Source: Armatimonadota bacterium
GTDB taxonomy: Bacteria; Sysuimicrobiota; Sysuimicrobiia; Sysuimicrobiales; Sysuimicrobiaceae
Length of the DNA stretch: 64,000 nucleotides
Assembly: GCA_031460175.1 (NCBI GenBank)
Contig: JAVKGW010000006.1
Location: 1 to 64,000, forward strand
Direction of reading: 5' to 3'
Below, piece after piece: positions 32,954-40,355 of this stretch. The notes beneath the pieces were generated by a model. That model did not search any database. It saw only the letters and a program-made list of their open reading frames with translations, and had not been told where the DNA came from. Each line of letters starts with the position of its first letter. Position 1 is the stretch's first letter. Both the position numbers and the translations under genes were made by a program.

Positions 32954-32967
32954 CTGGTTTTGTTTGC

Positions 32968-32997
32968 TTGACATGAGGAGAAGGGGAGCCCTATGAT
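32968..32997 (+). promoter_or_regulatory. Strong sigma70-type promoter of the nuo operon
   Basis: Perfect TTGACA (32968-32973), 18-base spacer, TATGAT (32992-32997). Start expected near 33004. Confidence 0.8.
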
Positions 32998-33003
32998 GCG
33001 CCT

Positions 33004-33148
33004 GGACCGTCAGGACCGGATTGCCCACCGGATGATGGTTCCGGCATCCGCTGCCGCGGTGTAAAGGGTTCCGTTCGAGGGGGTAAACCGACGCTCCGGA
33101 GGCCATGGCGGGACAGGTCCTCTGTCTTGCCGGACGGAGAGATCCGAG
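33004..33148 (+). promoter_or_regulatory. Structured 5' leader of the nuo operon
   Basis: About 145 bases between the predicted start and nuoA. Two hairpins are visible: CGGATG/CATCCG (33029-33034 with 33045-33050), and a 10-pair stem GGCGGGACAG/CTGTCTTGCC (33107-33116 with 33122-33131, two G-T pairs, 5-base loop) ending 17 bases before the GTG. No known riboswitch class is recognised. Confidence 0.4.
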
Positions 33149-37384: not shown

Positions 37385-37386
37385 CC

Positions 37387-38904
37387 ATGCCCATTCTCAC
37401 CGTGACCCTCTTCCTGCCGCTCCTGGGGGCCCTCGTGGTGCTGTTCCTGTCCCCGCACGATCCGGGCCGCATCCGAAGGGTGACGCTGGCATTCGCAGGG
37501 CTCACCTTCCTCAGCTCCCTCGCCATCTTGTCGTATTTCGACTTCGGGCGGCGGGAGATCCAGCTGGTGGAGGAGGCGGCGTGGATCCCCGCCATCGGCG
37601 TCCAGTACAAGGTGGGGGTGGACAGCATGAGCCTCGCCCTGGCCATCCTCACCACCCTTCTCACGCTCCTCTCCGTCATCTATTCCCTGCGGGTGGAGGA
37701 GCGGGTGAAGGAGTACAACCTGCTGTTCCTGCTGCTGGAAACGGGCATGCTGGGCGTGTTCTTCGCCCTGGATTTCTTCCTGTTCTATGTGTTCTGGGAG
37801 CTCACCCTGGTCCCCATGTACTTCCTCATCGGGATCTGGGGGGGGGCCCGCCGGGAGTACGCGGCCATCAAGTTCTTCCTGTATACCCTGGTGGGTTCGC
37901 TGGCCATGCTGCTGGCCATCCTGCTCCTGTACTTCCACCTGCCGCCCGGGGAGCGGACCTTCGACGTGCTGCGGATCCTGGAGGCCCGGCCGCTGGCAGG
38001 GACCGGACTATTGGCGCAGCTCGCCTTCTGGGGCTTCTTTCTGTCCTTCGCCATCAAGGTGCCCATGTGGCCCTTCCACACCTGGTTGCCGGACGCCCAC
38101 GTAGAGGCCCCCACGGCGGGCTCCGTCATCCTGGCCGCCATCCTGCTGAAGCTGGGGACCTACGGGTTCGTGCGCTTCAGTCTTCCCCTCTTCCCCGAGA
38201 TCTTCCAGCAGCATGCCTCCCTCATCGCGACCCTGGCCGTCATCGGGGTCATCTACGGCGCCCTGGTGGCCATGGCGCAGCAGGATCTCAAGAAACTGGT
38301 GGCCTACTCCTCCGTGAACCACATGGGATATGTGATGCTGGCGGTGGCCGCCGCGGCCGCGGCCCGAGGGAGGCCAGAGCTCATGGGCCCCGCGGCCACG
38401 GCCCTGAACGGAGCGGTGCTGGAGATGCTGGCCCATGGGGTCATCACGGGGGCCCTGTTCCTCATCGTGGGCGTCATCTATGACTATCGGACCCACACCC
38501 GCGGGGTAGAGGACTTCGGCGGGCTGTGGGCGGTGCTCCCCAAATACGGGGCCGTGACCATCACCGCCATGTTCGCCTCCCTGGGACTCCCGGGGCTCAT
38601 GGGCTTCGTGGCGGAGTTCCTGATCTTCGTGGGTTCCTTCGCCATTCTGCCCGTGCATACCGCGCTTGCGGCCATCGGCATCATCGTCACCGCGGCCTTC
38701 TTCCTGTGGACCATTCAGCGCATCTTCCTGGGGCCCACCAACCCCCGGTGGGGAGACCTGCCGGATCTGGATCGTCGGGAGGCCTGGTCCCTGATCCCCT
38801 TGGTGATCCTCATGATCGTGTTCGGGGTGTACCCGCGGCCGTTGGTGGAGTTCATCAACCTCAGCACCACGCAGGTGATGCAGCTCGTGGGGTTGGTGCG
38901 ATGA
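37387..38904 (+). CDS. nuoM: NADH-quinone oxidoreductase subunit M
   Basis: 505 residues, 14 transmembrane helices, antiporter-like. FYVFWELTLVPMYFLIG carries the essential Glu, IKVPMWPFHTWLPDAHVEAPTAGS the proton-channel Lys/His region, and KKLVAYSSVNHMGYVML the second channel. ATG is 2 bases after the nuoL stop. Confidence 0.96.
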   Translation: MPILTVTLFLPLLGALVVLFLSPHDPGRIRRVTLAFAGLTFLSSLAILSYFDFGRREIQLVEEAAWIPAIGVQYKVGVDSMSLALAILTTLLTLLSVIYSLRVEERVKEYNLLFLLLETGMLGVFFALDFFLFYVFWELTLVPMYFLIGIWGGARREYAAIKFFLYTLVGSLAMLLAILLLYFHLPPGERTFDVLRILEARPLAGTGLLAQLAFWGFFLSFAIKVPMWPFHTWLPDAHVEAPTAGSVILAAILLKLGTYGFVRFSLPLFPEIFQQHASLIATLAVIGVIYGALVAMAQQDLKKLVAYSSVNHMGYVMLAVAAAAAARGRPELMGPAATALNGAVLEMLAHGVITGALFLIVGVIYDYRTHTRGVEDFGGLWAVLPKYGAVTITAMFASLGLPGLMGFVAEFLIFVGSFAILPVHTALAAIGIIVTAAFFLWTIQRIFLGPTNPRWGDLPDLDRREAWSLIPLVILMIVFGVYPRPLVEFINLSTTQVMQLVGLVR

Positions 38905-40355
38905 ACGGGACAGACCTCCGCTGGCTCGTGCCGGAGATCCTCGTCGGAAGCCTCGCCCTGTTGCTGCTGGTGGTGGATCTCCTGCTCCCGCAGGAGCGCA
39001 AGTCCGTGGTGGGAGGACTCGGGATCCTCGGGTTGGGGGTGGCGGGCGTGGGCGCGGCCCTGCTCCTGCGGGATCTGGAGAAACTCGGGGAGGCGGGGGT
39101 TCGGATCCTTTGGGACACGTACACGGTGGACCACTTCGGGGTCTACTTCAAGCTGGTGGCCGTGGTGGCCACGGCCCTGGTGATCCTGGTGGGGATGGAC
39201 TTCTTCCCCCGGTATACGGCGTATGCGGGCGAGGCCTACGGGATGCTGGTCTTCAACTGCCTGGGCCTCATGCTCATGGCCTCCAGCAGCGAACTCATCA
39301 CGCTGCTCTTGAGCATCGAGTTCGTCTCCCTCACCAGCTACCTCCTGGCGGGCTATCTCAAGGGCAACCCGAAGAGCAACGAGGCGGGCGTGAAGTACTT
39401 CCTGTACGGGGCAGCCACCACCGGGGTCATGGCCTACGGCTTCTCCCTCCTGTACGGAGCCACGGGCTCCACGAGCCTCTACGACATCGCGGGCAAACTC
39501 GGACAGCTGGGCCCTGTGGGTGGGCTGGGCGTGGGGATGGCGCTGGCGGGATTCGGGTTCAAGATCTCCATGGTCCCCTTCCACCAGTGGACGCCGGACG
39601 TGTACGAAGGGGCTCCCACCCCCGTCAGCGCGTACCTCTCCGTGGGCCCGAAGGCTGCGGGATTCGCGGCGTTGCTCCGGACCCTGCTGGTGGCGGTGCC
39701 GCCGGAGAGCATGGACTGGCGGCTGTTGATGGCGGTGCTGAGCGCTCTCAGCATGACCGTGGGCAATCTCCTTGCCCTGCCGCAGCGGAACATCAAGCGG
39801 ATGTTGGCGTACTCCAGCATCTCTCACGCGGGGTTCATGCTCATGGCGGTGGCGGCTGCCCCATCCCCGTGGGCCCGTCCGGCCCTGCTCGCGTACGTGG
39901 GGGCCTACCTCTTCACGAACCTGGGAGCCTTCTTCGCGGCCCTGGTGGCCTCCTGGAGCACGGGCTCGGACGAGATTCCGGATTACGCGGGGCTCAGCCA
40001 GCGGGCACCGGGGGTGGCCCTGGCCATGGCCCTCTTCATGCTCTCCCTCACGGGCATCCCCCCCACGGCCGGATTTTTCGGCAAGTACTATCTTTTCTCC
40101 GCGGCGGTGGACGCGGGCCTGCTGTGGCTCGCGGTGGTCGGCGTCCTGAACAGTGTGGTCTCCCTGTACTATTACGTGGGCGTGATCCGGGCCCTGTACC
40201 TGATGCCTCCCGCCCGGGAGGTCTCCGTTCCGGTCCCCCCGGGCACCGGATGGGCCCTGGTCCTCACGGCCCTGGGGACCCTGGCGCTCGGGGTGGTCCC
40301 TCAGCCGTTCGTCACCCTCATCCAGTCCGCCCAGCGTCTGCTGGCGGGGTTCTAG
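38901..40355 (+). CDS. nuoN: NADH-quinone oxidoreductase subunit N
   Basis: 484 residues, 14 transmembrane helices. LLSIEFVSLTSYLLAGY, KISMVPFHQWTPDVYEGAPTP and KRMLAYSSISHAGFMLMA are the antiporter-family motifs. ATGA overlap with nuoM. Last gene of the operon; no E, F or G genes follow. Confidence 0.95.
   Translation: MNGTDLRWLVPEILVGSLALLLLVVDLLLPQERKSVVGGLGILGLGVAGVGAALLLRDLEKLGEAGVRILWDTYTVDHFGVYFKLVAVVATALVILVGMDFFPRYTAYAGEAYGMLVFNCLGLMLMASSSELITLLLSIEFVSLTSYLLAGYLKGNPKSNEAGVKYFLYGAATTGVMAYGFSLLYGATGSTSLYDIAGKLGQLGPVGGLGVGMALAGFGFKISMVPFHQWTPDVYEGAPTPVSAYLSVGPKAAGFAALLRTLLVAVPPESMDWRLLMAVLSALSMTVGNLLALPQRNIKRMLAYSSISHAGFMLMAVAAAPSPWARPALLAYVGAYLFTNLGAFFAALVASWSTGSDEIPDYAGLSQRAPGVALAMALFMLSLTGIPPTAGFFGKYYLFSAAVDAGLLWLAVVGVLNSVVSLYYYVGVIRALYLMPPAREVSVPVPPGTGWALVLTALGTLALGVVPQPFVTLIQSAQRLLAGF

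Follow-up and report, generated by a model that had tools for sequence, protein, structure and literature searches.

Genes for a probable 11-subunit complex I are split between two distant loci in the bacterial phylum Sysuimicrobiota

Introduction

Does a complex I operon that encodes only the membrane arm specify a pump of its own, or one half of an enzyme whose other half lies elsewhere? The question is raised by a stretch of 64,000 nucleotides (positions 1 to 64,000 of contig JAVKGW010000006.1, assembly GCA_031460175.1; hereafter the window) from an Armatimonadota bacterium, probably from hot springs, which GTDB assigns to the phylum Sysuimicrobiota. This window carries nuoA, H, J, K, L, M and N, the genes of the membrane arm, and no gene of the quinone-reducing Q-module (nuoB, C, D and I) or of the NADH module (nuoE, F and G) in the same operon. 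An original prediction from the sequence of the window took this as a sign that the peripheral arm had been removed or housed separately, and raised the possibility of an alternative, e.g. ferredoxin-linked, electron input. Here we report that the Q-module has not been lost and is housed elsewhere in the genome, and that the resulting split 11-subunit complex I coexists with a complete 14-subunit one. Judging from gene content, the window's A, H, J, K, L, M and N and the distant B, D, I and C probably form one proton-pumping quinone reductase, which would be fed by ferredoxin or a similar carrier.

Results

The window encodes a membrane-arm operon

The region from 33149 to 40355 is filled by seven tightly packed open reading frames (ORFs), identified from the ORF list and Pfam; all seven score above the Pfam gathering cut-offs. 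Together with a putative promoter, they are as follows.

32968..32997, + strand: putative sigma-70-like promoter TTGACA-18-TATGAT upstream of nuoA, 11/12 consensus positions
33149..33514, + strand: nuoA, 121 amino acids (aa); PF00507, 120.9 bits
33514..34497, + strand: nuoH, start read from the sequence; PF00146, 394.2 bits (scored on 33535-34497)
34499..34990, + strand: nuoJ, 163 aa; PF00499, 130.2 bits
34987..35295, + strand: nuoK, 102 aa from the ATG at 34987; PF00420, 90.9 bits (scored on 34948-35295)
35303..37384, + strand: nuoL, 693 aa; PF00361, 273.7 bits; NDH_I_L, 620.8 bits
37363..38904, + strand: nuoM, 513 aa, alternative ATG at 37387; PF00361, 237.9 bits; best solved match 8qby_M (NADH dehydrogenase subunit M)
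38901..40355, + strand: nuoN, 484 aa; PF00361, 245.9 bits (scored on 38904-40355); best solved match 6hum_B

Gene order and tight spacing were thus as first described, and the reported absence of the other subunits from the operon held as well: in both the ORF list and the gene picks, B, C, D, I, E, F and G are without an ORF among these genes. A possible nuoH ATG overlaps the nuoA stop at 33514, leaving no gene between the two, and the nuoK start overlaps the end of nuoJ (34987/34990). The order A-H-J-K-L-M-N equals ABCDHIJKLMN minus B, C, D and I. One sigma-70-like site was found upstream of nuoA, compared with a mean of 0.0 in 50 shuffles.

NuoL passed the cut-off of NDH_I_L; of the antiporter models that figure among the best 25 listed, it passed none. 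Mrp-type antiporters, which we define by Mrp subunits without NuoA, NuoH or a Q-module, do not describe a system in which all three of the latter are present. The segment DTYVVDGIVN occurs twice near the NuoL C-terminus (37145-37252), 26 residues apart; related doubled segments were seen by eye in several other families of the phylum, apparently not in family f5.

The Q-module and a complete nuo operon lie elsewhere in the genome

Family searches of the window's genome (2.49 Mb in 18 contigs, 98.89% complete) returned two loci each for NuoB and NuoD. One of them, on contig C3 at ~308.7-311.6 kb, is a nuoB-D-I-C cassette encoding NuoB (183 aa, 105.7 bits), NuoD (370 aa, 347.2 bits), NuoI (154 aa) and NuoC (230 aa, 157.7 bits), where NuoI is a NuoI-type dicluster ferredoxin (TIGR01971, 115 bits; cut-off 113.05). 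Neither a membrane subunit nor any of E, F and G was found beside this cassette; it is flanked by murA/ireB/ubiE-type genes on one side, and by a gene with a phosphoenolpyruvate-utilising domain and a PPDK_N gene on the other. Together, the window's seven genes and the four on C3 supply exactly one copy each of A, B, C, D, H, I, J, K, L, M and N.

The other locus, on contig C2 at ~118.5-132.5 kb, is a complete operon in the order A-B-C-D-E-F-G-H-I-J-K-L-M-N, in which the subunits are supported either by Pfam matches (B, D, F, A, C, E, G, H, I, J, K and N) or by solved homologues (L and M). Downstream lie an FAD protein with a weak match to electron-transfer flavoprotein:quinone oxidoreductase (ETF-QO) and then an ETF-QO-type ferredoxin protein. 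We refer to the genes of this operon as canonical and to those of the two cassettes as split. The original prediction had called for a genome search for the missing genes, and had named ordinary nuoBCDI genes at another locus with normal NADH activity, or a second complete nuo operon, as results that would make this a split operon; in gene content, both were found. By that standard the finding is a split operon, yet one that is split at the boundary between modules and kept through the phylum.

Both cassettes are kept through the phylum

The conservation of the arrangement was followed in 43 genomes of the phylum, all of one order and comprising seven families and 22 genera. NuoD of the BDIC type (68-100% identity) was found in 40 and NuoH of the membrane-arm type (58-100% identity) in 42 of them. 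Both cassettes, as judged by NuoD and NuoH, were present in 39 genomes and never close together: they lay on different contigs in 38, and on the same contig ~1.73 Mb apart in the remaining genome (G005, four contigs). The genomes in which one marker was not found are incomplete, i.e. G016, G017 and G046 for split NuoD (72, 77 and 89% complete respectively) and G010 for split NuoH (69%), and no genome of at least 90% completeness had one without the other.

Because different contigs in fragmented genomes do not alone prove distance, we also read the flanks. Membrane-arm loci fetched from 16 other genomes all showed the order A-H-J-K-L. The relatives' BDIC loci (L010-L013, L068-L078) had B-D-I-C in 13 of 15 cases, the exceptions being L070, in which nuoB was uncalled, and L013, a stretch that stops after nuoD. 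No membrane-arm gene was seen beside BDIC in the fetched stretches. The single collinear operon that is usual, albeit not essential, for an 11-subunit complex I is therefore replaced by two loci.

Catalytic and pump residues are intact

Alignment rows from 14-17 genomes per subunit were inspected for residues whose roles are known from complex I structures. All four N2 cysteines of NuoB and all eight cysteines of NuoI, the ligands of N6a and N6b, are kept in 15/15 rows. The quinone-site His of NuoD is present in 15 rows (one gap) and the Tyr in 16/16, and, except for single gaps, the charged residues that we checked in H, K, L, M and N (Glu/Lys in L, M and N) are retained. Apart from an Ala for Asp in one of 17 rows, NuoA retains its conserved residues. 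As read from these alignments, the catalytic and pump residues of the split complex are intact.

Split NuoD also carries marks of its own. A Gly is inserted directly before the quinone-site Tyr (DRG[ML]DY; split NuoD gene at L008:14889-16001) in 16/16 split and 0/15 canonical rows, and in none of 12 outside sequences (11 of the 12 closest relatives outside the phylum, and L028). Likewise, GYLHSSVEK occurs in all 16 split rows and in none of the 15 canonical rows, which read GYLHTG[IF]EK. A group 4 membrane-bound [NiFe] hydrogenase was considered and rejected, since none of the 16 split NuoD sequences has a [NiFe] cysteine motif.

The two halves covary when all 14 genomes are compared

Pairing of the halves was also assessed by partial correlations of protein distances across 14 genomes. 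The split Q-module correlated with the split membrane arm (partial r 0.56) and the canonical Q-module with the canonical membrane arm (partial r 0.52), values reached in 0/2000 shuffles in either case, whereas the crossed pairs gave -0.15 and -0.23. This pattern survived dropping family f2 or f4, thinning f1, or restriction to B and D with A and H. Covariation supports the pairing weakly, as the pattern is lost without f1 or f5 (see Discussion); the exact complementarity of gene content and the co-occurrence of the cassettes are the stronger arguments.

Relatives of the split subunits

A sample of 291 genomes, 248 of them from outside the phylum, contained 12 outside matches to split NuoD (50-55% identity, E ≤ 1e-120). 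No match to E, F or G was present in any of these 12 loci; all of A-B-C-D-H-I-J-K-L-M-N occurred in order in five, and the other seven miss calls or run off the contig. Five further loci from outside the phylum, found through NuoL, comprised one with A to M without E, F and G, one with J to N only, two with L-M only, and one with E, L and M on a short contig. In G058, a genome in a single contig from outside the phylum, the stretch fetched (L104) has nuoJ-K-L-M-N and neither A nor H, which may represent a different type of split complex I. Plasmids searched with split NuoD yielded 252 records, none of which reached 60% identity, and no further lead.

Solved structures were compared with split D, L, N, M, H, I and B and with canonical D, L and M. 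Split NuoD matched 6hum, the cyanobacterial NDH-1 (chains NdhH, NdhF and NdhB), through NdhH with 423 bits and 2fug, the Thermus complex, with 370 bits; canonical NuoD gave 475 bits with 2fug and 354 with NdhH. Similarly, split NuoL matched NdhF with 493 bits and the next structure with 370, compared with 449 (8e9g), 437 (Thermus) and 437 bits (NdhF) for canonical NuoL, and split NuoN matched NdhB best. Since the leaning towards NDH-1 is confined to D, L and N, and of these only D and L have a canonical control, these matches do not decide the donor.

Quick trees were built for D, H, L, B and N and judged by Shimodaira-Hasegawa-like approximate likelihood ratio (SH-aLRT) support only; their outgroup branches are long. 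In each of them the split copies formed one group (support 100, 99, 100, 92 and 99 respectively) and the canonical copies another. Three outside loci with two operons (L091, L096 and L099) were left out of all trees except that of D. The position of the split group among outside sequences varied between trees; the H tree joined it to one 11-subunit row (support 92).

Electron input

A second NADH module close to the cassettes was looked for through NuoF and not found. A search of the 43 genomes (E ≤ 1e-30) found NuoF in 41, and 40 of these have a match that shares a contig with canonical NuoD and is no more than a few kb away from it; the match in G034 is a fragment at a contig end. Distances to the split cassettes could be read on shared contigs only, not across separate short ones, and there no NuoF was closer than ~140 kb to a split cassette. 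Nor was E, F or G seen in either split cassette, in the window's genome or in the relatives' fetched loci, the set being present in the canonical operon. One extra NuoF-type gene, at ~431 kb on contig C1 of the window's genome, encodes a protein with NuoE and NuoF domains beside molybdopterin-oxidoreductase genes, and was set aside as a formate-dehydrogenase-type locus.

The window itself encodes a candidate source of reduced ferredoxin, which may be tied to the complex:

57966..60798, + strand: 2-oxoacid:ferredoxin oxidoreductase alpha and beta; TIGR03710, 527.6 bits (cut-off 482.75), and TIGR02177, 279.8 bits (cut-off 261.9)

Homologues of the beta subunit occur in 42/43 genomes, with at least 67% identity in 40 (one as a fragment). 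Given that no NuoF was found near the cassettes and that this oxidoreductase is widespread, reduced ferredoxin is the most likely donor, as proposed for Desulfitobacterium; we consider the chances of ferredoxin being the donor of the split complex to be about even.

In many relatives, nuoC is followed by an ORF of 505-550 aa, which has a molybdopterin (sulfite-oxidase-type) domain in the two cases examined (L071:5213-6793 and L072:10510-12027). The window's genome has no gene of this kind after nuoC, and the protein was therefore rejected as a general donor.

Surroundings of the two cassettes

The membrane-arm operon is bordered on both sides by genes that recur in the relatives.

30749..32953, + strand: rapZ and yvcK (CofD family), upstream of nuoA; Pfam RapZ-like_N/PapZ_C and CofD
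40488..48961, + strand: V/A-type ATPase genes G-I-K-E-C-F-A-B-D, downstream of nuoN; Pfam, and NCBIfam V-type subunit A

Thirteen of the relatives' loci extend upstream of nuoA; yvcK precedes nuoA in 11 of them (with one ORF between in L057 and L064), and L052 and L066 have other ORFs instead. V-ATPase genes follow nuoN in all 12 fetched loci in which the contig continues. A PF00006 search of the genome found no rotary ATP synthase besides the window's V/A-ATPase: the four matches are the A and B subunits of this enzyme, an ATPase of the type III secretion/flagellar type, and Rho. No promoter- or terminator-like site was found between 40200 and 40600, so that the nuo transcript may run on into the V-ATPase genes.

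The BDIC cassette is preceded by truA-ubiE-ireB-murA in family f1. Outside f1, eight of nine loci have a NifU_N (SufU-type) gene upstream of nuoB, either next to it or no more than ~6 kb away (by Pfam in L071-L075, L077 and L078, by sequence reading in L076); none was seen upstream in L070, which is near a contig end. According to Pfam, L071 further contains a class-V aminotransferase, a Rieske protein, two SUFBD proteins and an ATP-binding cassette (ABC) ATPase upstream of BDIC, and the molybdopterin-domain protein, a dihydrolipoamide-dehydrogenase-type protein and E1-type subunits downstream. One might speculate, though we doubt it, that each module sits beside the machinery on which it depends, the pump arm with the only ATP synthase and the Fe-S arm, in most non-f1 lineages, near SUF-type genes. 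If so, the cell could set the levels of pump and electron input separately, with the membrane arm as a standing pump and the Q-module supplied according to Fe-S and reduced-ferredoxin status.

Further away in the window, isocitrate-dehydrogenase-, malate-dehydrogenase- and succinyl-CoA-ligase-type genes lie upstream (26226-30404), and 2-oxoglutarate dehydrogenase E1, sucB and the 2-oxoacid:ferredoxin oxidoreductase downstream (54005-60798). Genes of the oxidative tricarboxylic acid cycle thus flank the region, and NAD-linked and ferredoxin-linked oxidation of 2-oxoacids seem to coexist. A run of histidine biosynthesis genes occupies 12806-18509 (histidinol dehydrogenase, imidazoleglycerol-phosphate dehydratase and a His_biosynth protein by Pfam, their neighbours by eye).

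Discussion

We propose that the two cassettes encode one 11-subunit quinone reductase. Their most likely origin is a collinear nuoABCDHIJKLMN operon, from which nuoBCD and nuoI would have moved away prior to the diversification of the phylum. In the assembled complex, electrons would enter through the two 4Fe-4S clusters of NuoI and pass to cluster N2 in NuoB; quinone would be reduced at the NuoB/NuoD/NuoH site, and its reduction would drive the pumping of ions, presumably protons, by L, M and N. The natural donor would be reduced ferredoxin, supplied e.g. by 2-oxoacid:ferredoxin oxidoreductase without an NADH module, while the separate 14-subunit complex would handle NADH. Of the separate housing envisaged in the original prediction, the part that concerns the Q-module is borne out, with B, D, I and C in one cassette elsewhere throughout the phylum, and the absence of the NADH module from the split gene set is borne out too. 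This absence fits an alternative input, for which a ferredoxin link is plausible.

Several observations weigh against this proposal. When family f1 is left out, the correlation of the split Q-module with the split membrane arm falls to 0.14 (280/1000 shuffles as high), and that of the canonical Q-module with the split membrane arm is 0.73; without f5, the former is 0.23. In a named genome collection, a scan that reaches close relatives only, the NuoD matches that follow those of the phylum itself are from Mesorhizobium (48-49%) and sit in operons with E, F and G. The D tree joins the split group to canonical and actinobacterial 14-subunit copies (support 89). Among solved structures, NuoM matches 8qby best in both its split and canonical copies, and split NuoH, NuoI and NuoB match mitochondrial chains best, so that not every split subunit is NDH-1-like. 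Finally, the 2-oxoacid oxidoreductase occurs too widely to be indicative of the split complex.

Could the 11 split subunits make use of the canonical operon's NuoE, F and G and act as a second isoform of NADH:quinone oxidoreductase? The genome does hold a complete set, NuoF is present in 41/43 genomes, the Mesorhizobium relatives combine their NuoD with E, F and G, and the authors of a study of Chloroflexus aurantiacus suggest that NuoG may be shared by two sets (PMC3150298). We nevertheless regard such borrowing as unlikely, because the 12 closest outside relatives of split NuoD belong to operons without E, F and G, and because the surroundings of the quinone site, with the Gly insertion and GYLHSSVEK, set all split copies apart from the canonical ones. 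An exchange in the other direction, in which the window's arm could take the place of the canonical membrane arm as pump and nuoBDIC would serve something else, would be conceivable where both halves coexist with canonical counterparts, and would fit the value of 0.73 obtained without f1. It is, in our view, very improbable: the two cassettes sum to one non-redundant 11-subunit complex, the genomes of at least 90% completeness never have split NuoD or NuoH alone, and the crossed correlations are negative across all 14 genomes.

Least probable of all, and hardly to be expected, is a stand-alone ion pump or antiporter without any Q-module. NuoA and NuoH are the parts of the membrane arm that contact the Q-module, and both keep their conserved residues save for the one Ala in 17 NuoA rows. 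Moreover, split NuoD accompanies split NuoH in 39 of 42 genomes, the other three being the incomplete ones named above. The precedent for such a pump is the seven-gene operon of Salinispora and marine Streptomyces, for which a role in salt tolerance has been proposed (PMC3314556; PMC6676996); the uninterrupted nuoA-nuoH of the window is unlike the operons described in the latter paper. Altogether, a single enzyme encoded at two loci remains the reading we prefer.

A membrane-arm-only operon thus need not mean a stand-alone pump, as its partner may lie elsewhere, and this bears on how partial nuo operons are read in other bacteria. A phylum with 14- and 11-subunit complexes side by side is natural material for the question of the donor, and also suits asking how the halves of the smaller complex are matched in amount.

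Comparison with known systems

Among the papers listed in literature searches, which included few subscription papers, we found no description of this split complex I; the paper on the phylum Sysuimicrobiota (CSP1-3), which describes it as a single class with a single order and uses Armatimonadota as outgroup, contains in its main text neither the term 'nuo' nor a mention of complex I (PMC11604079). The elements of the arrangement are already known, from 11-subunit complexes and their coexistence with 14-subunit ones to nuoAHJKLMN operons and nuo genes that lie scattered. What is new is the division along the module boundary, kept through the sampled genomes of the phylum.

The closest counterpart in composition is the 11-subunit complex I of Desulfitobacterium hafniense (nuoABCDHIJKLMN), for which ferredoxin was proposed as donor, the direct donor of such complexes being termed an open question in the same article (PMC11238625). 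The 11 subunits are the same and E, F and G are likewise absent; as described there, however, the genes form one operon, whereas here they form two distant cassettes with the Q-module order B-D-I-C and a 14-subunit complex alongside. Sulfobacillus resembles the present case in having a 14-subunit complex and a second one without nuoE, F and G, but its 11 subunits are described as a gene cluster (PMC4378227) rather than as two loci. Chloroflexus aurantiacus also has a complete nuoA-N and a second, atypical set; according to the published description, the latter is largely one run (Caur_1976-1987) with nuoDE, two nuoM and a distant nuoF and without nuoG, and its Q- and membrane modules are not separated as they are here (PMC3150298).

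The same seven genes are reported from marine actinomycetes (PMC3314556; PMC6676996; PMC8622039), in the order A, H, J, K, L, M, N in Streptomyces, Salinispora and Kocuria. Compared by description only, these operons differ in a hypothetical gene between nuoA and nuoH, absent in the window where nuoH overlaps the nuoA stop, and in their scattered occurrence, for which horizontal acquisition was proposed; the accounts of them consulted name no partner Q-module, whereas here the arrangement is phylum-wide and has a partner. In the texts available, nuoAHJKLMN is an operon name in some papers and otherwise mainly a label for the membrane subunits. Species with unclustered nuo genes have also been described (PMC12361115).

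The core subunits, to which our comparison was confined, give a mixed likeness to the NDH-1 of cyanobacteria and chloroplasts, 6hum being the best solved match for split NuoD, NuoL and NuoN, and other structures for split NuoM, H, I and B. NDH-1 likewise has no E, F and G, its genes are dispersed, and it takes its electrons from ferredoxin. Set beside these systems, the split complex I of the Sysuimicrobiota is a familiar type of enzyme whose genes are arranged in an unusual, well-conserved way.

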